Virus record (IMG/VR): IMGVR_UViG_3300049596_000453
Location: 1-21,831 of that record
Length of the DNA stretch: 21,831 nt
Origin: a virus
Strand: one strand, 5' to 3'
The notes beneath the pieces were generated by a model. It saw nothing but the letters and a program-made list of their open reading frames with translations. It did no database searches and was not told the origin of the DNA. Made by a program: the position numbers and the translations under genes. This document shows, in pieces, positions 3,097 through 20,721 of this stretch; position 1 is the first letter of the stretch, and every line of letters begins with the position of its first letter.

Positions 3097-3125
3097 ATTA
3101 TACACTAGTTTTGCGCAATTGTCAA
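3097..3125 (-). promoter_or_regulatory. Perfect consensus sigma70-type promoter of gene 52
   Basis: Minus strand: TTGACA (3125..3120), 17-nt spacer, TATAAT (3102..3097), about 25 bases upstream of the gp52 start. It gives gp52 its own transcript in addition to read-through from the large subunit. Confidence 0.85.
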
Positions 3126-5000: not shown

Positions 5001-5029
5001 ATTATAACATAAAAATCCAGCAATGTCAA
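5001..5029 (-). promoter_or_regulatory. Perfect consensus promoter of the topoisomerase large-subunit gene
   Basis: Minus strand: TTGACA (5029..5024), 17-nt spacer, TATAAT (5006..5001). The -10 box ends 34 bases from the GTG start. Confidence 0.88.
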
Positions 5030-7646: not shown

Positions 7647-7674
7647 ATTATACATAGGTTCTCAGAACTGTCAA
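7647..7674 (-). promoter_or_regulatory. Consensus promoter pointing antisense into uvsW
   Basis: Minus strand: TTGACA (7674..7669), 16-nt spacer, TATAAT (7652..7647), all twelve box positions matching. Transcription would begin near 7640 and run into the uvsW 3' end. No minus-strand gene of plausible quality follows. Confidence 0.6.
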
Positions 7675-9430: not shown

Positions 9431-11151
9431 TGAAAATTCAATTTAAGAAAATACGATACAAGAATTTGTTATCGTCTGGTAATTCATTTACTGAAATCTT
9501 TTTAGATAAAAGCAAAACCACTCTTATTAGCGGTTCAAATGGCAGTGGAAAATCTACGCTACTTGACGCTATTACGTTTGCGTTGTATGGTAAAGCTTTT
9601 CGCAAAATTAATAAGCCACAACTTATTAATACCATCAACGAAAAAGATTTGGTTGTAGAAATAGAATTTAATATTGGAACACAGCAATATCTTATTCGTC
9701 GTGGTTTAAAACCAAACATTTTTGAAATTTTGTTGAATGGTAATTTGGTAAATCAAGATGCAGCAGCACGAGATTATCAAGTATATCTTGAACAAAACAT
9801 TCTTAAATTAAACTATAAATCTTTTACTCAGATCGTTATTCTAGGTAGTGCTACGTATGTTCCTTTTATGGAATTACCTGCACAAGGCCGTCGTGAAATT
9901 ATTGAAGATCTTCTTGACATTCAAGTATTCAGCACTATGAATACTTTGCTAAAAGAAAAAGTTGTTGCTAATAAAGAAAGCATTACTGAAAATAGTTATC
10001 AAAAAGATTTGATTGAAACTCGCATTGATTCTGCAAAAGACCATAACGAATCTATTCGCAAAATTAGAGAAAAAGAAGTAGATAAGATTAAAGAAAAGAT
10101 GAAAGAGCATCTTGATACTATCGAAAAAGAAAAATCTGCTATTGACATTATTGATGCTGAAATAGCTTTGCTTGATACTAGATGTGTAGATAAAGCATCT
10201 ATTAAATCTAAAAACGAAAAAGCAAAAACATTAAGACAAGAATTACAATCTAATCTTCGTAGCATTAATAAAGAGTTATCTTTCTATCACGATAACGATA
10301 ATTGTCCAACTTGTAAACAAGGTATTGCTCATACTTTTAAAGATAATGTTATTACTGAAAAAAGTAAAAGAGTAAGTGAAATTGAAACTGCAATTGATGA
10401 ATTGTCAGCTAAAATTGACGTACACGAAGCTAACCTCAATCGTATTTCTGCTATAGAAGAAGAAATTAAACAGAAAGCTCTTAAATGTTCTGATCATCGT
10501 GCTAATATTAAAATGTCTAAGAACGCTCTCATTTCATTTAAAGATGAATTGAATGCAGCTGAAGAAGATGTCGAAGCAGTTGACACGACAAAGCTTGAAG
10601 AATATAATACTACATTAAAAGATATTGAACGTAGACAAACACATCTATTTAATGAAAAAGAAGTTATTGCAGTTACAGGTGCAATGCTTAAAGACGGCGG
10701 TATTAAAGCCAAAATCATTAAGCAATATGTTCCAATAATGAACAAACTTATCAACAAATATTTAGGTGCGTTTGATTTGTTTGTTGAATTTAATCTTGAT
10801 GAAAACTTTAATGAAGTAATTAAATCTCGTTTTCGCGATACATTCTCATATGCTTCGTTTTCAGAAGGCGAAAAGCTTCGTATTACTTTAGCTATTATGT
10901 TATCATGGCGAGCAGTTGCTAAGTTGCGTAATTCAGTATCTACTAATTTGCTTATTCTTGATGAAACACTTGATGGTGCATTAGATGGAGTTGGTATTGA
11001 AATGTTAATTGAAACATTACATAACTTAAATTCTGACGATAATATTTTTGTTATCTCACACCGTGGACATCAGTTTGGCGATAAATTCATGTCTCATATT
11101 AAATTCGATAAAGTTAAAAACTTTAGTCAAATTGCAGCTTTAGCAACATAA
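9430..11151 (+). CDS. 46: Recombination endonuclease subunit gp46 (Rad50/SbcC-like)
   Basis: 573 aa, T4 gp46 is 560 aa. ATPase partner of gp47. Walker A GSNGSGKST (35-43); Q-loop region TQIVILGS followed by the SbcC-type LPAQGRREIIEDLLDI; long coiled coils on both sides of a zinc hook CPTC (C292, C295); ABC signature FSEGEKLRI; Walker B NLLILDETLDGALD near 505-518; switch histidine in ISHRGH. All catalytic parts are present. A perfect consensus promoter lies inside the gene at 10580-10608, in the second coiled coil. Confidence 0.97.
   Translation: MKIQFKKIRYKNLLSSGNSFTEIFLDKSKTTLISGSNGSGKSTLLDAITFALYGKAFRKINKPQLINTINEKDLVVEIEFNIGTQQYLIRRGLKPNIFEILLNGNLVNQDAAARDYQVYLEQNILKLNYKSFTQIVILGSATYVPFMELPAQGRREIIEDLLDIQVFSTMNTLLKEKVVANKESITENSYQKDLIETRIDSAKDHNESIRKIREKEVDKIKEKMKEHLDTIEKEKSAIDIIDAEIALLDTRCVDKASIKSKNEKAKTLRQELQSNLRSINKELSFYHDNDNCPTCKQGIAHTFKDNVITEKSKRVSEIETAIDELSAKIDVHEANLNRISAIEEEIKQKALKCSDHRANIKMSKNALISFKDELNAAEEDVEAVDTTKLEEYNTTLKDIERRQTHLFNEKEVIAVTGAMLKDGGIKAKIIKQYVPIMNKLINKYLGAFDLFVEFNLDENFNEVIKSRFRDTFSYASFSEGEKLRITLAIMLSWRAVAKLRNSVSTNLLILDETLDGALDGVGIEMLIETLHNLNSDDNIFVISHRGHQFGDKFMSHIKFDKVKNFSQIAALAT
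10580..10608 (+). promoter_or_regulatory. Consensus promoter inside gene 46
   Basis: TTGACA (10580-10585), 17-nt spacer, TATAAT (10603-10608), all twelve box positions matching. Transcripts from about 10615 would cover the end of gene 46, the 74-aa gene and gene 43. Confidence 0.5.
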
Positions 11152-11437: not shown

Positions 11438-13978
11438 ATGTCTAGTTTTTACACGTCTGTTGAGCGGTTTGGCAACAGCATCCTTTGGCGCGGTTACGAA
11501 AACGGTAAACGTTTTGAGCGCAAAGTTAAGTATTGTCCTACCTTGTTTGTTGGAAGCAAAGACACTGCATCTAAATATCGTTCTTTGATTAACAATCGTC
11601 CTATGAATCCTATTCAAATGGATTCGATGAAAGACGCAAAAGATTGGATTGAACAATACAAAGATGTGCACGGCTTTGAAATTGCTGGTAGTACTAACTA
11701 CGTAGCTCAATTTATTCAAGAGCAATATCCCGATGCTATAGATTACGATGTTACTAAAGTTAACATTGTGTCTTTCGATATCGAGGTTGATATTAGCAAC
11801 GGCTATCCTAATATGGATACTGCTGATAAAGAAATTACTTCTATTGCTTATAAGTCTTCAAAGACCAGCGTCTATCATTTGCTCGGTCGTAAAGACTACG
11901 ATAAAACTAAAACGCTGTTGAACATCGATCCTTCTGATATTGACTTTACAAAATTTGATTCAGAAGAAGAGTTGCTTCGCAAATTCAAACAACTTTGGAT
12001 GAGCGACTATCCAGATATCGTTACAGGCTGGAACGTAGAGTACTTCGATATTCAATACATCATTACTCGTATGCGTAGTTTGTTTGGTGAAGAGTGGATT
12101 AAAGATCTTTCGCCGTGGCGCAATCTTCGTCAGCATGGTCGTGAATTCTTTGGTAAGATGCAAAACACTTATGAAATTAGTGGTGTTGCAGTTGTTGACT
12201 ACATGGATGCGTTCAAGAAGTTTGGCTACAAATACGGCCCACAAGAATCTTATAAGCTTGATCACATTGCTAATGTTGTGCTTGGTGAAAAGAAACTTGA
12301 TTACTCTGAGTACGGTACACTTACAGAATTGTACGAACAAAATCCGCAATTGTATTTGGACTACAACCTTAAAGATACTTGGCTTATTCAGCGTTTTGAA
12401 GATGAAACCGGTTTGCTTTCTCTTGTTATGACTGTTGCTTATGGTGGTGGTGTTAATTTCAATGATGCATTTGGTACTGTTGGTATCTGGGAAACAACCC
12501 TGTATCGTAGACTCATTAAAGCTGGTCGTGTTCCTCCTATCAAAGGTGGTCCTGGTCAGCGAGCTGGTGACCTTGTCGGCGGCTATGTTAAAGATCCAAA
12601 AGTTGGTATGCATCCTTGGGTTGTATCATTCGATTTGAACTCACTGTATCCACACTTGATGCTGCAATACAACATGTCTCCAGAAACTTATTTGGAAAAC
12701 GAACGTCAATACGTAACACAAGAAATGGTGCTTGCTGACAAATTCCAAAACACAGATAAGTCAATGTCTGTTTGTGCAAATGGTGCATGTTTCACAAATG
12801 AATTTAAAGGTGTTATTCCTGAGATCATTGATGAATACTATGGCAATCGTTCTGTGATTAAAAAGAAGATGTTGAAGGTTGAACAAGAACTTGAGAACAC
12901 AAAAGATCCTCGCGAAAAAGAAAATCTAAAGCGCGAAGCTAACAACTTGCATAATCAGCAAATGGCTATTAAGATTGCGATGAACTCGTTGTATGGTGCA
13001 ACAGCTAACATTTACTTCTTGTATTACATTAACGACATGGCTGAAGCAATCACAACATCAGGTCAACTTTCTATTCGTTATGCTGAAAAATCTGTTAATA
13101 CGTACTTGAATAAGTTGCTTAAAACAGAAAATAAAGATTACATCATGTACATCGACACCGATTCTATCTATGTTGATATGTCTGGTGTTATTAAAGCTTC
13201 GTTTGGTACAGTTGATGTTGAGCGTTCTAAAGGTGAAGAGTTTCTCGATAAAGTTTGCAAAATGAAAATCGAAGGTATCATCGAAGCTGGCTATGTTGAG
13301 CTTGCTGAAAAGATGGGTGCATATCGGCAAGCAATGTCGATGAAGCGTGAAAAGATTACTGATAAAACAGTATTCATTGCTAAAAAGCGTTACATTATGA
13401 ATACTCTTAACTCAGAAGGCGTTCATTACGATACTCCAAAAATTTCTGTAACAGGTCTCGAATCAGTTCGTTCTTCTACTCCAGAAGTATGCCGCGATAA
13501 ACTTAAAGACTCTTTTAAAGTTATTATGAATCAAGACGAACAGGCTGTTCAGCAGTTTATTGAAGACTTCCGACAGGAATTCTTTAAGTTAACCGCTGAA
13601 GATATTGGTCGTAACTCTGGCACAGACAACATTGACAAGTATATTGATCGTACAAACGGTTACAAGAAGGGTTGTCCAATGCACGTTCGTGGTGCTATTT
13701 TGTACAACAACCATCTCAAGCAAAAAGGTCTAGATAAAAAGTTTAGGTCTGTTGTTGGTGGTGATAAAGTTAAGTATGTTCATCTTAAAACTCCAAACCC
13801 TATTCGTGAAAACATTATCGCATTTCCAGGCGTGTTACCAAAAGAGTTTGCGCTTGAAAAATACATTGACTACGAAACACAATTCGAAAAAGTGTTTCTT
13901 AGTCCGTTACAATCGATTCTCGAAGCTGTTGGTTGGTCTGCAGTAAAAATTTCAACACTTGACGATTTCTTTGTCTAA
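11438..13978 (+). CDS. 43: DNA polymerase gp43, family B
   Basis: 846 aa, T4 gp43 is 898 aa. Replicative polymerase with proofreading. Exo I SFDIEVD has D114 and E116, aligning with T4 D112/E114; Exo II is in TGWNVEYFDIQYI; Exo III is the YNLKDTWLI stretch. Polymerase motif A SFDLNSLYPHL holds D399 (T4 D408); motif B is KIAMNSLYGA; motif C YIDTDS holds D573 and D575. All catalytic acids are present, so both activities are expected. About 50 residues shorter than T4, with the loss spread over loops. Gene 43 has its own promoter. Several long opposite-strand frames inside it are shadows. Confidence 0.98.
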   Translation: MSSFYTSVERFGNSILWRGYENGKRFERKVKYCPTLFVGSKDTASKYRSLINNRPMNPIQMDSMKDAKDWIEQYKDVHGFEIAGSTNYVAQFIQEQYPDAIDYDVTKVNIVSFDIEVDISNGYPNMDTADKEITSIAYKSSKTSVYHLLGRKDYDKTKTLLNIDPSDIDFTKFDSEEELLRKFKQLWMSDYPDIVTGWNVEYFDIQYIITRMRSLFGEEWIKDLSPWRNLRQHGREFFGKMQNTYEISGVAVVDYMDAFKKFGYKYGPQESYKLDHIANVVLGEKKLDYSEYGTLTELYEQNPQLYLDYNLKDTWLIQRFEDETGLLSLVMTVAYGGGVNFNDAFGTVGIWETTLYRRLIKAGRVPPIKGGPGQRAGDLVGGYVKDPKVGMHPWVVSFDLNSLYPHLMLQYNMSPETYLENERQYVTQEMVLADKFQNTDKSMSVCANGACFTNEFKGVIPEIIDEYYGNRSVIKKKMLKVEQELENTKDPREKENLKREANNLHNQQMAIKIAMNSLYGATANIYFLYYINDMAEAITTSGQLSIRYAEKSVNTYLNKLLKTENKDYIMYIDTDSIYVDMSGVIKASFGTVDVERSKGEEFLDKVCKMKIEGIIEAGYVELAEKMGAYRQAMSMKREKITDKTVFIAKKRYIMNTLNSEGVHYDTPKISVTGLESVRSSTPEVCRDKLKDSFKVIMNQDEQAVQQFIEDFRQEFFKLTAEDIGRNSGTDNIDKYIDRTNGYKKGCPMHVRGAILYNNHLKQKGLDKKFRSVVGGDKVKYVHLKTPNPIRENIIAFPGVLPKEFALEKYIDYETQFEKVFLSPLQSILEAVGWSAVKISTLDDFFV

Positions 13979-13982
13979 CAAG

Positions 13983-14011
13983 TTGACATTACGTATAGCT
14001 TGTGTTATTAT
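13983..14011 (+). promoter_or_regulatory. Sigma70-type promoter of the MazG-like gene
   Basis: TTGACA (13983-13988), 17-nt spacer, TATTAT (14006-14011). An inverted repeat TAGCTT/AAGCTA (13996-14001, 14019-14024) flanks the -10. Confidence 0.8.
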
Positions 14012-14048: not shown

Positions 14049-14546
14049 ATGGAAAATTGGGCTACAGATCTTAGCAAGATCAACATGTCGCGTAACAAAA
14101 ATTGGGCGAACGACATTAATGCAATGCACCACAAATTTGGTGTTAAAGAATGGTTCGAAGCCAATAAAAGCAATAAAGAACTTATGGCAAATTATCTTAC
14201 TTTCCGTTTGAATATGTGCCTAGAAGAATTGCTTGAAACTGCAAATGCTGCAGATCTTGATCTTGGTATTAATGAAGATGGTAAATTTGCTTTCATGGGT
14301 GATGCATCTAAAACTGATCCAGAAGAAATTGTAGATGGTCTTATTGATCTTTCTGTTTTTGCTGTTGGTACACTTGATGTGTTTAATGTTGATGCTAATA
14401 AAGCATGGGATAATGTTTATAAAGCAAACATGAACAAATCTACAGGAGTTAAACCAGGACGCCCTAACCCGTTTGGTCTACCAGATTTGATTAAGCCATC
14501 AGACTGGGTTGCACCTTCTCATAAAGGTAATCACGGAGATTTTTAA
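14049..14546 (+). CDS. MazG-like nucleoside triphosphate pyrophosphohydrolase
   Basis: 165 aa all-alpha NTP pyrophosphatase. The metal-binding motif EELLE (59-63) and the second acidic helix EEIVDGLIDL (92-101, with E93, D96 and D100) fit the ExxE(12-28)ExxD pattern of the MazG/dUTPase-2/PRA-PH superfamily. It also has the usual late helix AWDNVYKANMNK (119-130). Such enzymes cleave (d)NTPs to NMP and pyrophosphate; in phages they are linked to nucleotide pool cleansing or alarmone control, but the substrate cannot be told here. N-terminal NWATDL..INMSRNKNWANDI may be a docking extension. Ribosome site AAGGAT. Followed by heme oxygenase after 43 bases. Confidence 0.82.
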   Translation: MENWATDLSKINMSRNKNWANDINAMHHKFGVKEWFEANKSNKELMANYLTFRLNMCLEELLETANAADLDLGINEDGKFAFMGDASKTDPEEIVDGLIDLSVFAVGTLDVFNVDANKAWDNVYKANMNKSTGVKPGRPNPFGLPDLIKPSDWVAPSHKGNHGDF

Positions 14547-14589: not shown

Positions 14590-15144
14590 ATGTCGAATAA
14601 ATTAAAAGAGCTTACTTGGGCTCACCATCAATCTGCTGAACGCAGAGCTTTTGCTAGAGAACTAATGGGTGGTAAAATTGATCCAAAACTTTACCACAAG
14701 TTTCTCACATGTCAATATATGAACTATGCAGTTCTAGAAAAACATACAAAAATCCCAGTAAACTTAAACTCTATTAAGAGAGCGCCTCGTATTTTTCAAG
14801 ATATTCGCGAGTTAGAAACATTGTTTGGTTTTGAACCAGACGGTAAATTCCCGCCATCTGTTGATGAATATGCTGCTCATGTTACTGCGCTTGCGGAAAA
14901 AAATGACAACCAATCTCTACTAGCTCATATGTATGTTCGCCATTTTGGTGAGTTGCATGGTGGCCAAATGATTAAGAAAAAGATTCCAGGTAATGGGATT
15001 ATGTATGAATTTGACGGTGATACTAAAGTTCTAATTGAAGAATTTAGAAAACTACTTAATGATGACATGGCCGATGAAGCAAAAATCTGTTTTGATTTTG
15101 CATCAAAATTGTTTGATGAATTATCTCTGGAAATCAAAGAATAA
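14590..15144 (+). CDS. ho: Heme oxygenase (biliverdin-forming)
   Basis: 184 aa, shorter than most heme oxygenases (200-240 aa). Opens heme to biliverdin, CO and Fe2+ using O2 and electrons from reduced ferredoxin or a similar donor; cytoplasmic. The proximal segment WAHHQSAERRAF has the HxxAE pattern with likely heme ligand H13. The distal helix HMYVRHFGELHGGQMIKK (113-130) matches the canonical AHxYTRYxGDLSGGQxLKK, with the flexible glycines G120, G124 and G125. The canonical Asp (Asp140 of mammalian HO-1) is E121 and the Ser is H123. Strong ribosome site GAGGAGG. Its product biliverdin is the substrate of the bilin reductase 400 bases downstream, so the pair forms a two-step pathway from heme. 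Confidence 0.92.
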   Translation: MSNKLKELTWAHHQSAERRAFARELMGGKIDPKLYHKFLTCQYMNYAVLEKHTKIPVNLNSIKRAPRIFQDIRELETLFGFEPDGKFPPSVDEYAAHVTALAEKNDNQSLLAHMYVRHFGELHGGQMIKKKIPGNGIMYEFDGDTKVLIEEFRKLLNDDMADEAKICFDFASKLFDELSLEIKE

Positions 15145-15151
15145 TTTTTTG

Positions 15152-15179
15152 TTGACACACTCACACACTAGTATATAAT
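15152..15179 (+). promoter_or_regulatory. Perfect consensus promoter of the bilin reductase operon
   Basis: TTGACA (15152-15157), 16-nt spacer, TATAAT (15174-15179). It starts transcription after heme oxygenase, so the two small genes, the bilin reductase and the phosphoesterase can be expressed apart from the oxygenase. Confidence 0.88.
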
Positions 15180-15213
15180 CTTTATATGGGACAATAAAAT
15201 AAGGAGAAATCTT

Positions 15214-15417
15214 ATGCAGTTTGAAGATGAAACCGTATCGTTCGAAGAACTCGAACTAATTAAAAATACAGCAAAAGCCAATAGATTGTTGCGAAGCGAA
15301 TCTGCAAGAACGAAGCGAAAAGAATTAAAGCAAATTCGCGAAACTAAAATTCTCAATGAATGGGCTAGACAACGTAGAGAGCGTAAACAAAATGCAAAAC
15401 AAAATCACAACACTTAA
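15214..15417 (+). CDS. Unknown small basic protein, 67 aa
   Basis: An acidic start (MQFEDETVSFEELELIKN) is followed by a strongly basic, probably helical remainder (RTKRKELKQIRETK, then WARQRRERKQNAKQNHNT). The charge split suggests RNA, DNA or protein contact, but no domain is recognised. Good ribosome site AAGGAG at 15201-15206 and a consensus promoter. Its last 26 bases overlap the next gene, suggesting coupled translation. It lies between heme oxygenase and bilin reductase; no link to bilins can be shown. Confidence 0.75.
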   Translation: MQFEDETVSFEELELIKNTAKANRLLRSESARTKRKELKQIRETKILNEWARQRRERKQNAKQNHNT

Positions 15418-15577
15418 TGTAGAAGAAGATCCTCTTACTGGGGATTTTTTTCTGCAGCTTACAGATGAAATATGCGAAGAGCTAGGATGGACCGTTGGTG
15501 ATACTCTTATATGGGAAGAACTACCAAACAATTCTTGGTCAATAAAGAAAAAAGATAATGTACCCGCTGTGGAATAG
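15392..15577 (+). CDS. AbrB-like small protein, 61 aa
   Basis: Starts MQNKITTLNVEEDPLTGDFF and has LGWTVGDTLIWEEL. The order beta strand, DP-TGD turn, then (L)GWxxGDxLxWxxxxxxSWxIKK is that of AbrB/MazE swapped-hairpin folds, seen in many T4-like marine phages as a small conserved protein. It may bind DNA, but the family also includes non-regulators. The start at 15392 was preferred to an upstream in-frame ATG at 15356 because ITTLNVEEDP begins the conserved domain and AGAGAG precedes it. Overlaps both neighbours (26 and 20 bases). Confidence 0.75.
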   Translation: MQNKITTLNVEEDPLTGDFFLQLTDEICEELGWTVGDTLIWEELPNNSWSIKKKDNVPAVE

Positions 15578-16241
15578 ATTAAACGAATATGCTGAGTATA
15601 TTAATAGCCGCTTTAATGATAAGTTTCAGCGTTATGACAATCCAAAGTATACTGAAGATCTTCATTTTAAAGATTGGAATGATACTTTCTGGAAATCGGA
15701 ATTAATAGATAAAGCACATCTTAAAACTATTGCACCTAAAGACGGCAAAGGTTTGTGGTTAATGCATATTAATATTTTTCCAAAAACAGGAATTGAACTT
15801 CCTGTTCTAGGTTTTGATATTGTAGCAGGTCCTAAAAAGATTACGGGTTCTTTTATGGACTTTTCTCCATTACATGGTTTTTCACATCCATATACAAAAT
15901 ATATGGAGACAAAGGTAAAAGATCTTGAATGGAATAAGCAGAGAGAATTGCCACCTTGGGCTAAAGAGATTTTTTCAGAGAACATGATTGCGGTTGGCAA
16001 TATTAATACTGAAGAAGAATTAGAGCAATTTATTAAAGTAACGAGTGATTTACTTAATTACTATTTGGATAACTTAGAAAAAGATGCTGTTAAAGCTGAA
16101 CGCGATACTAAGCCAATTCTAAATAAGTATTGTTCTAACCAAAAGCTAAATCCTCATTTGCATAGATCTATTCTTGCTATGGGAATTTCTGAAGAAGATA
16201 AAAACCTATACGTAAATAACGTATTGTTTGAGGAATTATAA
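15558..16241 (+). CDS. pcyX: Ferredoxin-dependent bilin reductase, PcyX/PcyA-like
   Basis: 227 aa, the length of phage bilin reductases (PcyA is about 245, PebS about 233). Reduces biliverdin with ferredoxin electrons to a phycobilin. LPVLGFDIVAG (81-91) and GSFMDFSPL (97-105) match PcyA LPMFGVDVVGG and the IADLSPV motif, so D101 equals catalytic Asp105. RELPPWAKEIFSENMIAV (129-146) matches RELPEWG-IFSDFCIFV, and NKYCSNQ with the C-terminal YVNNVLFEEL matches NYCSKQQ and YMTTVLFDLP. By the same offset N72 stands at PcyA Glu76, as in four-electron enzymes. P199 stands where PcyA/PebS carry the second conserved Asp (NDKTRR becomes NPHLHR). These features suggest PcyX, known from uncultured oceanic viruses to make phycoerythrobilin; the subfamily needs a tree. 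Starts inside the previous gene (20-base overlap). Confidence 0.88.
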   Translation: MYPLWNRLNEYAEYINSRFNDKFQRYDNPKYTEDLHFKDWNDTFWKSELIDKAHLKTIAPKDGKGLWLMHINIFPKTGIELPVLGFDIVAGPKKITGSFMDFSPLHGFSHPYTKYMETKVKDLEWNKQRELPPWAKEIFSENMIAVGNINTEEELEQFIKVTSDLLNYYLDNLEKDAVKAERDTKPILNKYCSNQKLNPHLHRSILAMGISEEDKNLYVNNVLFEEL

Positions 16242-16242
16242 A

Positions 16243-17166
16243 ATGAAAATTGCAGTATGCTCTGATGTCCATTTAGAATTTGGACCTATTACACTTCAAA
16301 ATACTGAAGGCGCTGACGTGTTAATCTTGTCGGGTGACATCTGTGTCGCTAATGATTTGAATGATCGTGCAGATCCTGCAATTCTTGGCATGACAAACAA
16401 GAGTAATATCTATCATGACTTCTTTCAGAATTGCTGCCGCGAATTTAAGCACGTTGTTTACATCTCCGGTAATCACGAGCATTATAACGGTGATTTTGCA
16501 CTAACTTATTCTAGACTAAAAGAAAAACTAAGTTACTTAACTAACTTGCATATCCTTGAAAAAGAATATGTTACGTTTGATGATGTTACTTTTATTGCTG
16601 GAACTCTTTGGACTGATATGAACAAAGAAGATCCAAGTACTCTGTATGCAATTAAAGGTTATATGAATGACTATAGAATCATCAAAGATACTTCTACTCT
16701 AGTAACATACAAAGCTCATATCTTAAAAGATAAGCCAGTTGGAATGACTGACGAAGAATGGATTGCATTGCCTTATGATGAACGTCATACTGTTGAATTT
16801 AAGACGCGTACAGGATCATTCACGCCGACAAAGTCTGTTGAAGAACATAAAGCTATGTTAGACTTTATTGATGCAACCGTAAAAGGATTGCCAAACGAAA
16901 AGTTTGTAGTAGTTGGACACCATGCTCCTTGTAAGCTTTCAGTTAAGCCAGAATACGAAGATGACACGATGGTTAATGGTGCTTATTCTTCTGATTTGTC
17001 AGAGTTTATTCTTGATCGCCCACAAATTAAAGTATGGACACACGGGCATACTCATGACAAATATGATTATATGGTTGGTTCTACTCGTGTTATTTGTAAT
17101 CCTCGCGGTTACATCAAATATCAAGAAATCGCAGATAATTTTGAATTACAATATTTTGAGGTGTAA
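16243..17166 (+). CDS. Calcineurin-like metallophosphoesterase
   Basis: 307 aa. Metal-binding motifs in order: D8 and H10 (CSDVHLEFG), LSGD (29-32), SGNHEHY (75-81), VVGHHAP (about 222-228) and WTHGHTHD (about 265-272). This is the complete set for the family, so an active phosphodiesterase or phosphatase is expected; the substrate is unknown. It is distinct from gp47, lacking the gp46 partner and capping domain. ATG 16243 was chosen over a TTG at 16228 because GAGG at 16230-16233 is well placed and MKIAVCSD starts the domain. One base after the bilin reductase stop, so co-translated with it. Confidence 0.88.
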   Translation: MKIAVCSDVHLEFGPITLQNTEGADVLILSGDICVANDLNDRADPAILGMTNKSNIYHDFFQNCCREFKHVVYISGNHEHYNGDFALTYSRLKEKLSYLTNLHILEKEYVTFDDVTFIAGTLWTDMNKEDPSTLYAIKGYMNDYRIIKDTSTLVTYKAHILKDKPVGMTDEEWIALPYDERHTVEFKTRTGSFTPTKSVEEHKAMLDFIDATVKGLPNEKFVVVGHHAPCKLSVKPEYEDDTMVNGAYSSDLSEFILDRPQIKVWTHGHTHDKYDYMVGSTRVICNPRGYIKYQEIADNFELQYFEV

Positions 17167-18601: not shown

Positions 18602-18630
18602 TTGACAGTTTATAGTTTTTGTTATATAAT
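18602..18630 (+). promoter_or_regulatory. Perfect consensus promoter of the gp33-gp59 operon
   Basis: TTGACA (18602-18607), 17-nt spacer, TATAAT (18625-18630). Transcripts should begin at about 18637, at the base of the hairpin 18639-18657. Confidence 0.88.
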
Positions 18631-18899: not shown

Positions 18900-19136
18900 A
18901 TGGCAATTGTACCAAGAACACCAGAAAAAGTTCATCACGAAATCCAAGAAATGCTATCAAAAGGTGTAAATTATATTGATGCTCTTGTGGAGTATGCAAG
19001 AATAAATCATTTAGAAATTGAAACAGTTGCCGACATTGTTAAAAAATCTTCTATCTTAAAAGAAAAAGTAAGAAGCGAAGCAGTTGAATTAAGAATGGTA
19101 TATGACGATGATCAAGACATCACAAAGTTATGCTAA
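18900..19136 (+). CDS. 33: Probable late transcription coactivator gp33
   Basis: 78 aa, T4 gp33 is 112 aa. gp33 bridges host RNA polymerase and the sliding clamp for late transcription with gp55. The core NYIDALVEYARINHLEIETV then ADIVKKSSILKEKVRSEAVEL (about 24-64) resembles the helical IDAxxxYCExxxIExExxAxLVxxxLKxKIxxEAxxL pattern of gp33 in marine T4-like phages, from memory. Its position next to gp59 and gp32 matches T4, where 33, 59 and 32 cluster. The acidic end (DDDQDITKLC) does not show an obvious hydrophobic clamp-binding tip. Identification rests on motif and position together. Confidence 0.6.
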   Translation: MAIVPRTPEKVHHEIQEMLSKGVNYIDALVEYARINHLEIETVADIVKKSSILKEKVRSEAVELRMVYDDDQDITKLC

Positions 19137-19710
19137 TGATGATTCATTTCATTGGTATGTAAAATACCTTGCAATGAAGAAACATTTTACAACTGATGGA
19201 TATGATTATCACAAATATAATGGAAAAATAAGAGCATCATTTGACACGTTTAGAACTAGGAATGATGCTTACTTTTTCGAAAAGCTATCTAATAAAGAAA
19301 ATCCAGAAAAGTTAATGGTGGCTAATATGGTCATCAAACCAAATGTCTGGATTCGTGAAATCGTAGAACAAGAAGGTGAAGATCGGTATATTGATTGGCA
19401 AAGAAAAATAGATTCTTTGTCTCGCGTCTTTAAAACAGATCTAAATCTTCTTGACGATAACTTTCAAGCTAATTTTACTTCAGTAAATGGACAACATCCT
19501 TTTATTATGACTATGTACTTACAGAAGAAAATCAGTCTTGAAACATTTAGTATCATTGCGAAAATATCTAATATTTTTCCTTATTGGGAAAAAGAAATAG
19601 TTGACAAAATCGTAGCACGTGATATAATTAGGCTAATAAAGAAGTATAAACCTTTTTTAGAAATTGATGAAAAAAAGTTTAAAGATATCGTACGTGAACG
19701 CTTTTTCTGA
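19102..19710 (+). CDS. 59: Helicase loader gp59
   Basis: 202 aa, T4 gp59 is 217 aa. Loads the replicative helicase gp41 on gp32-coated forks. FHWYVKYLAMKKHFTTDGYD followed by YHKYNGKIRAS and RNDAYFFEKLSNK (about 16-63) match T4 KLYLMIKQHM-YDVIKYNWCMRVS-RRDKYFFQKLSEK. MVIKPNVWIREI matches NLVANQDAWIGDI, and the C-terminal half is helical as in T4. The start (ATG 19102, or 19108) lies 35 bases inside the gp33-like gene with no strong ribosome site. Gene 32's early-type promoter lies in its 3' end. Confidence 0.9.
   Translation: MTMIKTSQSYANDDSFHWYVKYLAMKKHFTTDGYDYHKYNGKIRASFDTFRTRNDAYFFEKLSNKENPEKLMVANMVIKPNVWIREIVEQEGEDRYIDWQRKIDSLSRVFKTDLNLLDDNFQANFTSVNGQHPFIMTMYLQKKISLETFSIIAKISNIFPYWEKEIVDKIVARDIIRLIKKYKPFLEIDEKKFKDIVRERFF
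19601..19628 (+). promoter_or_regulatory. Consensus promoter of gene 32 inside gene 59
   Basis: TTGACA (19601-19606), 16-nt spacer, TATAAT (19623-19628) with TG at 19620-19621 (extended -10). All boxes perfect. Transcripts would carry a leader of about 160 bases before gene 32. Confidence 0.75.
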
Positions 19711-19794: not shown

Positions 19795-20721
19795 ATGTCA
19801 TTTGACGCACTTAAAAAGAATCGTTCAGCCTCCCTCGGCAAATTGAACGCACAGCTCGAAAAAATCTCAACAAAGAGCTACTCAGATCCCAACGAAGGTA
19901 AAATGTGGAAACCAACCCGCGATAAAGCAGGTAACGGTTTTGCAATTATCCGTTTCTTGCCTGCTCCTAAAGGTGAAGAAATGCCATTTGTTCGCGTATG
20001 GGATCACGGTTTCCAAGGCCCAACAGGTCTCTGGTACATCGAAAACTCTCTCACTACCATCAATCAAGACGACCCTGTTTCAGAATACAACGGCAAGTTG
20101 TGGAATTCTGGCTTGGATTCAGACAAAGAAATTGCTCGCAAGCAAAAGCGCCGCCTGAAATACGTTGCTAACGTTTACGTTATTAAAGATTCTGGTAATG
20201 CAGATAACGAAGGCAAAGTATTCATGTTTTCCTTCGGCAAAAAAATCTTCGACAAACTTAACGATCTAATGAATCCACAGTTTGAAGATGAAGCACCGGT
20301 CAACCCGTTTGATCTTTGGGAAGGTGCTAACTTCCGTTTGAAAATCCGTCAATTCGAAGGATACCCAAACTACGATAAATCTGAATTTGATGCACCGGGT
20401 CCTTTGTCTGATGACGAAGCAGAACTCGAACGTATTTACAACTCAGAGCATGCATTGCAAGAATTGATTGATCCTAAGAACTTTAAGTCTTACAATGAGT
20501 TGAAAGCAAAACTTTACCGTGTTCTTGCTCTTGATGAAGAAGCTAGTGCTCCTTCTAAAGCAGCAGATGACAACGAGTTTGATCTAAGCAGCATGGGTAA
20601 TTCAGAAAAGGCTGCTCCAACTCCTACTTTAAAAGAAGCAAAATCTACTTCTAAGAAACCTGTTATGACAGATGACGACGATGACGATCTTTCTATCTTT
20701 CAGGAACTAGCTAATGGCTAA
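19795..20721 (+). CDS. 32: Single-stranded DNA-binding protein gp32
   Basis: 308 aa, T4 gp32 is 301 aa. Coats ssDNA in replication, recombination and repair, and binds UvsX, UvsY, gp59 and gp43. The basic N-terminal LAST-like motif KKNRSAS (7-13) serves cooperativity. The OB core begins with GNGFAIIRFLPAPKGEEMPF (47-66, T4 GNGQAVIRFLPS) and goes on with DHGFQGPTGLWYIENS, NEGKVFMFSFGKKIFDKLND and DLWEGANFRLKI. The T4 zinc site (H64, C77, C87, C90) is gone: the segment reads ENSLTTINQDDPVSEYN with no cysteine. The acidic tail ends DDDDDDLSIFQELANG. Ribosome site AGGAG. Two promoters, one early-type and one late-type. Stop overlaps the next gene by eight bases. Confidence 0.97.
   Translation: MSFDALKKNRSASLGKLNAQLEKISTKSYSDPNEGKMWKPTRDKAGNGFAIIRFLPAPKGEEMPFVRVWDHGFQGPTGLWYIENSLTTINQDDPVSEYNGKLWNSGLDSDKEIARKQKRRLKYVANVYVIKDSGNADNEGKVFMFSFGKKIFDKLNDLMNPQFEDEAPVNPFDLWEGANFRLKIRQFEGYPNYDKSEFDAPGPLSDDEAELERIYNSEHALQELIDPKNFKSYNELKAKLYRVLALDEEASAPSKAADDNEFDLSSMGNSEKAAPTPTLKEAKSTSKKPVMTDDDDDDLSIFQELANG

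Follow-up and report, generated by a model that had tools for sequence, protein, structure and literature searches.

The window, which is the whole stretch of DNA analysed here and corresponds to a complete IMG/VR contig of 21,831 bases, carries the genes for a heme oxygenase (HO) and a ferredoxin-dependent bilin reductase (FDBR) within a T4-like replication core. We consider it likely that these genes make up a working, early-expressed phage pathway leading from heme to a reduced bilin, with a reductase sister to PcyX, in an alphaproteobacterial host lacking an FDBR of its own. In such a pathway, HO would open heme to yield biliverdin, CO and iron, and the FDBR would reduce biliverdin with electrons drawn from host ferredoxin. 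The conversion of heme to biliverdin and on to a reduced bilin had been put forward in an earlier sequence-only reading of this DNA, and it is supported by the profile, phylogeny and predicted fold of both enzymes, which agree; Pfam, PHROG and PDB searches give concordant identities for the two genes. The pair is no stray passenger, as it is kept in every relative examined.

The replication core around the pair comprises topoisomerase genes, UvsW, gp46/47 homologues, gp43 and a MazG-like gene, followed by HO and FDBR; 3' of the latter come a phosphoesterase gene and then gp59, gp32 and UvsX-like genes. Some of these names rest on position and on a reading of the sequence, while gp43, gp59 and gp32 are identified by profile and the gene order is kept across relatives. 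The relevant features are as follows:

11438..13978 (+), gp43 DNA polymerase (phrog_262, E 4.7e-291; ~44% identity to cyanophage gp43)
13983..14011 (+), sigma70-type promoter-like site (11/12, extended -10), between gp43 and MazG and upstream of HO
14049..14546 (+), MazG-like nucleotide pyrophosphohydrolase (phrog_671, E 1.1e-18; PRA-PH, E 5e-6), directly 5' of HO
14590..15144 (+), HO, 184 aa (PF01126, Heme_oxygenase, 77 bits, cut-off 23, E 1.9e-21)
14626-14628, codon of the HO proximal His13, invariant in 24 aligned relatives
14947-14967, HO distal-helix motif GELHGGQ, residues 120-126
15152..15179 (+), perfect sigma70-type promoter, TTGACA-16-TATAAT (12/12 match)
15214..15417 (+), small ORF A, 67 aa (phrog_15319, E 9.1e-5)
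15356..15577 (+), small ORF B, 73 aa (phrog_661, E 5e-12)
15558..16241 (+), FDBR, 227 aa (PF05996, Fe_bilin_red, 66 bits, cut-off 31, E 6.9e-18)
15723-15725, FDBR Lys56, at the position of PcyA Glu76 and PcyX Asp55
15765-15767, FDBR His70, corresponding to PcyA His88
15816-15818, FDBR Asp87, corresponding to PcyA Asp105
16243..17166 (+), calcineurin-like phosphoesterase, ATG at 16243, directly 3' of FDBR (PF00149, E 3.4e-9; phrog_1649, E 5e-52)
19102-19710 (+), gp59 helicase loader (PHROG profiles phrog_269 and phrog_224 for gp59 and gp32)
19795-20721 (+), gp32 single-strand binding protein

The layout described in the sequence-only reading is confirmed by these coordinates. The stop of HO and the start of FDBR lie 413 bases apart, with two small overlapping ORFs in between, and the pair is found between genes 43 and 33, with gp43 upstream and gp59, gp32 and a gp33-like gene, the last assigned by position only, downstream. 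Small ORF A is discernible between HO and FDBR in many relatives; small ORF B overlaps the start of FDBR by 20 bases, and its MazE-like match is weak and falls below the cut-off (E 0.09).

Searching viral contigs for the FDBR yielded 133 relatives, 80 of which were kept, and at these 133 related loci HO adjoins FDBR upstream wherever the contig extends that far, the pair being located between gp43/MazG and gp59/gp32. In a trait-independent sample, for which contigs were chosen by gp32 and at least 4.4 kb upstream of gp32 was needed, both genes were present in 29/29 contigs, a set that includes some near-duplicates and in which gp32 identities go down to ~70%. In the deeper members of the clade HO and FDBR are ~47-56% identical to those of the window, and in some of them the two genes are directly adjacent, like those of the pelagiphage Mosig. 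Both genes evolve under purifying selection, with dN/dS values against the window of 0.07-0.15 for HO and 0.08-0.13 for FDBR, as compared to 0.06-0.10 for gp43/gp32, all of them rough values since most pairs approach saturation at synonymous sites. Internal stops were absent from every HO and FDBR copy, and the possibility of chance or decayed ORFs is ruled out by conservation and dN/dS. At two loci (L233 3442-4035 and L254 6571-7179), HO has been swapped for a distant type carrying the canonical MGDLSGGQ motif, 35-38% identical and off the clade's HO in the tree, and the FDBR stays within the clade despite the swap. This exchange is a replacement without loss of the pair: HO is swappable in the clade, yet not dropped.

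The assignment of the reductase to the FDBR superfamily follows from its profile match and its fold. Its best solved relative is PcyX (5owg, E 3.6e-42), and an AF2 model built on window and locus sequences only (pLDDT 92.7) superposes on the PcyA-biliverdin complex with a Z of 24.2 over 218 residues (rmsd 2.5) and on PcyX with a Z of 21.8 over 177 residues (rmsd 1.7). The sequence-only reading had made its case depend on whether a tree would place the protein among the bilin reductases. In the ML tree of 50 proteins the FDBR fell inside them, in a window clade supported at 99/94 (24 representatives). The sister group of this clade is phage PcyX (100/99, 17 representatives; join 99/98), and it stands apart from cyanobacterial and cyanophage PcyA and from PebS/PebA. 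With the deeper members added, the window clade (91/76) again joins PcyX (100/100) and again lies outside cyanobacterial and cyanophage PcyA. Both trees leave out alphaproteobacterial PcyA and pre-PcyA, and their rows for Synechocystis PcyA, PebA, one PebS and PcyX 5owg are partial, taken from PDB alignments.

The active site sets the window clade apart from its sister group. The column of PcyA Glu76 holds Glu in 5/5 PcyA, Asp in 17/17 PcyX (Asp55) and Lys in each window-clade member read, and this Lys is fixed even in members that are just 47-54% identical; His70 and Asp87, the His-Asp pair of PcyX, are invariant across the clade. Glu76 is considered PcyA-specific and is required for 18-vinyl reduction by PcyA (PMC10151467). 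Asp55, in turn, has been termed PcyX-specific, and a phage FDBR devoid of it (CB_2) turned out to be a true PcyA (PMC11480375). The earlier suggestion of a PcyX-type reductase thus stands only in part: PcyX is the nearest known enzyme, but the window protein belongs to its sister clade, in which Lys takes the position of PcyX Asp55 and PcyA Glu76. Membership in PcyX is ruled out by this Lys and by a tree position outside the PcyX clade, membership in PcyA by Lys at position 76 and by clustering outside cyanobacterial and cyanophage PcyA, and membership in PebS/PebA by the tree. Since the reductase is sister to PcyX, keeps the His-Asp pair and has Lys where PcyA has Glu, its most likely product would be phycoerythrobilin, which is the product of PcyX (PMC11480375), or the two-electron intermediate on the way to it, 15,16-dihydrobiliverdin. 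Lys56 could also alter or abolish FDBR activity. A bolder proposal, which we regard as possible but tentative, is that the Lys-type reductases constitute an FDBR family of their own in which Lys56 redirects the protonation of biliverdin, leading to a product or use that would be new with respect to PcyA, PcyX and PebS, and that a large phage clade might have, among its core functions, the supply of a bilin to a host without its own FDBR. In any case, a natural Lys at a key proton-transfer position provides a new test of product choice in bilin reductases.

The heme oxygenase can be assigned to the HO-1 type on the grounds of its profile, its fold and its proximal His, and its AF2 model (pLDDT 90.5) matches the structures of HmuO and HO-1/HO-2. 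The position of the distal catalytic Asp is occupied by Glu (GE..GGQ) in the window's subclade and by Asp (GD..GGQ) in deeper members, so an acid is kept in both; two residues past it, every HO belonging to the clade proper has His in place of Ser. The PDB structure matches include a crystallised D136E mutant of HmuO (1wnx).

Seven perfect sigma70 sites are present in the window against 0.03 expected (3097-3125, 5001-5029, 7647-7674, 10580-10608, 15152-15179, 18602-18630 and 19601-19628), those at 10580 and 19601 falling within coding sequence. The site at 15152-15179 comes after the HO stop and 5' of the small ORFs and FDBR. Among relatives, a site matching at least 11/12 positions occurs in 38/48 distinct HO-FDBR gaps, as opposed to a mean of 0.9 under mononucleotide shuffling. 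By analogy with T4 early promoters, the pair would presumably be transcribed early by the host polymerase.

The pathway extends beyond the pair in the relatives. A 5-aminolevulinate synthase (AlaS; TIGR01821, E < 1e-165) is encoded ~25-29 kb downstream of FDBR in G001, G002, G004, G005 and G008, that is, in 5/5 examined contigs with ~25 kb or more downstream; the contigs of the window's own species end sooner. These phage AlaS loci (L102, at G001 172945-174141, L099, L100, L101 and L103) are mutually 74-80% identical. The synthase probably increases the tetrapyrrole supply, so that, on balance, glycine and succinyl-CoA would be channelled via heme into a reduced bilin. A plant-type ferredoxin encoded by the phage was considered as a partner for the FDBR and rejected, as no Fer2 domain was found in 27 phage records. 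Photosynthesis genes were said to be absent and none could be identified in the window; psbA/psbD, CpeT and phycobiliprotein genes were likewise looked for and not found in 18 records of up to 221 kb, most of them fragments, in agreement with the non-cyanobacterial setting that had been proposed. The controls for the ferredoxin, GAF, phycobiliprotein, psbA/D and CpeT searches matched in known genomes. The 221-kb G001 (L083-L094) also shows matches to GapR, CHASE2, guanylate-cyclase domains, CsgG, HSP20, class 3 lipase, carbamoyltransferase and PhoH.

Several indirect lines of evidence make it likely that the host is an alphaproteobacterium. Many relatives have, directly upstream of HO, a permuted tmRNA belonging to the alphaproteobacterial family (e.g. 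L054 8642-8989, L071 7978-8316, L081 3040-3337 and L090 4168-4476), although none was found in the window itself. GapR is encoded by G001, and Caulobacter is the only control genome that has it. The closest cultured phages to the gp23 of G001 are the Sinorhizobium phages phiN3/phiM12, with 66.8% full-length identity, but some cyanophages match this protein too, over split alignments. An exception to the tmRNA argument is phage Melnitz, which has an alpha-type tmRNA and yet a gammaproteobacterial host (PMC9004378). Whether the host belongs to the Rhodobacteraceae is evenly poised: three clade contigs reside in a Rhodobacteraceae bin, in which they may be mis-binned phage, and one (L098) in a Bacteroidetes bin. 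Leaving the phage-bearing bin aside, FDBR was found in 0/295 Rhodobacteraceae genomes, and a scan of genome collections returned phage contigs within bins only and no bacterial FDBR. Among 385 alphaproteobacterial genomes, the same bin aside, only one passed the FDBR cut-off, with a protein too divergent to root the tree, and no alphaproteobacterial PcyA turned up in plasmids or in a phylum sample. The probable host would hence be an alphaproteobacterium without its own FDBR, and given the lack of the reductase in the candidate host family, whatever reduced bilin an infected cell contains would come from the phage. As side observations, the alphaproteobacterial tmRNA found between MazG and HO in many relatives is a two-piece molecule, with tags such as ANENFAPSGLALAA, and one alphaproteobacterial genome (G322) encodes two very divergent FDBR-like proteins (L110 1474-2160 and L112 1474-2193) with bacterial-looking neighbours.

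The purpose of the pathway can be envisaged in several ways. Cyanophage ho1/pebS/pcyA have been proposed to provide the phycobilisome of their cyanobacterial host with bilins, and a similar maintenance of the antenna by the window phage would be in line with a gp43 closest to cyanophages and with the presence of related genes in cyanophages. This function is exceedingly improbable, and we reject it on the absence of psbA/D, CpeT and phycobiliprotein genes from the records searched; the reductase also lies outside the cyanophage PcyA and PebS clades, the tmRNA is of the alpha type and accompanied by GapR, and the capsid is nearest to those of Sinorhizobium phages. The replacements at catalytic positions (Lys56 and the Asp-to-Glu change in HO) might instead denote the loss of an ancestral activity in enzymes that now act as binding proteins. 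We deem this very improbable, for no variation is seen at His70, Asp87 or the HO proximal His, the fixation of Lys in members of such low identity suggests function rather than decay, and the replacement of HO by a canonical GDLSGGQ type in two phages suggests that activity is needed. Iron release had been offered as another purpose, in which the iron of host heme would be freed for phage iron enzymes and the reductase would just clear biliverdin so that HO keeps turning over. Iron is indeed a product of HO chemistry, G001 encodes the small subunit of ribonucleotide reductase, and iron supply has been considered as a role of the known cassettes (PMC11480375). However, AlaS in the same phages would drive new heme synthesis and thereby take up the iron freed by HO, and the FDBR, which is dispensable for iron release itself, is kept as strongly as HO. 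Because AlaS raises iron-consuming heme synthesis, the whole route would be roughly iron-neutral, and simple iron release is weakened to the point of being unlikely.

Bacteriophytochromes are present in many alphaproteobacteria, and a reduced bilin could load a host bacteriophytochrome or other bilin protein, or displace biliverdin from it, and so alter signalling, be it for light sensing or for sabotage. The phage PcyA of CB_2 is able to supply a phytochrome chromophore (PMC11480375), which is in keeping with this idea. On the other hand, no GAF-domain protein was found in 27 phage records, and the receptor would thus have to be that of the host; we view this role as rather unlikely. A phage GAF photoreceptor was itself rejected on the same search, and the photoreceptor chromophore suggested by the sequence-only reading finds no support, as regards a dedicated phage photoreceptor, in the GAF and phycobilisome searches. 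Each bilin receives two to four electrons from an FDBR. Early in infection, then, excess heme, porphyrin precursors and reducing power could be turned into a harmless antioxidant bilin, an explanation consistent with the joint making and consumption of heme by AlaS, HO and FDBR and with the conserved early-type promoter 5' of FDBR. The co-expression of phage HO and FDBR, however, left porphyrin accumulation unlowered in E. coli carrying a phage AlaS (PMC11480375), and such cytoprotection or redox sink appears a minor, though real, possibility. Setting these alternatives against the working pathway from heme to reduced bilin, the retention of FDBR wherever it could be checked makes the reduced bilin itself, or the removal of biliverdin, a likelier target of selection than iron alone.

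Phage pairs of HO and bilin reductase in hosts thought not to be cyanobacteria are already known, both from the Pelagibacter phage Mosig (EXVC030M, MT647606) and from published hemO-pcyX pairs and AlaS triples (PMC11480375), and their presence there has been termed enigmatic (PMC11480375). Mosig, a T4-like phage with a non-cyanobacterial host, likewise has HO followed by a PcyX-type FDBR, with ~35% identity to the window for both proteins (35% for HO). In Mosig, however, the two genes overlap and lie beside neck genes with a ferrochelatase nearby, whereas in the window a promoter-bearing gap separates them and they lie between gp43 and gp59. The key FDBR residue is Asp in Mosig and Lys in the window, and the HO motif reads MGDLSGGQ in the former and FGELHGGQ in the latter. 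PcyX_EBK42635, the phycoerythrobilin synthase from oceanic phage DNA solved as PDB 5owg, resembles the window FDBR in its fold and His-Asp pair and belongs to the sister clade, but its Asp55 is replaced by Lys56, and the window protein shares 33-38% identity with PcyX relatives. The published hemO-pcyA/X-valaS cassettes, including CB_2 (PMC11480375), share with the AlaS-bearing relatives of the window the presence of the three activities in one phage genome, and a 'broken cassette' with valaS away from hemO-FDBR has been described (PMC11480375). The marine contigs bearing such cassettes were assigned to pelagiphages by gp13 (PMC11480375), as opposed to the window clade, with its nearest cultured capsid in Sinorhizobium phages and its Lys-type FDBR. 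The cyanophage PcyA and PebS (P-SSM4, P-RSM6 and P-SSM2) belong to the same superfamily and are also carried by T4-like phages, but they form separate clades, PcyA with Glu76 and PebS with a different active site, and cyanophages carry photosynthesis genes, such as psbA. As far as can be seen in the literature compared, the new elements are thus the Lys-type sister clade, the near-universal place of the pair in the core of a T4-like clade, the displacement of HO with the pair kept and an alphaproteobacterial setting beyond the pelagiphages. A clade that retains the pair as it would a replication gene, and not as an occasional passenger, makes the enigma testable.

Towards its left end the contig also encodes, on the (-) strand, an NAD-dependent epimerase family protein (112-999), perhaps a surface-sugar gene, and a tRNA-Leu with anticodon TAA (1156-1242).
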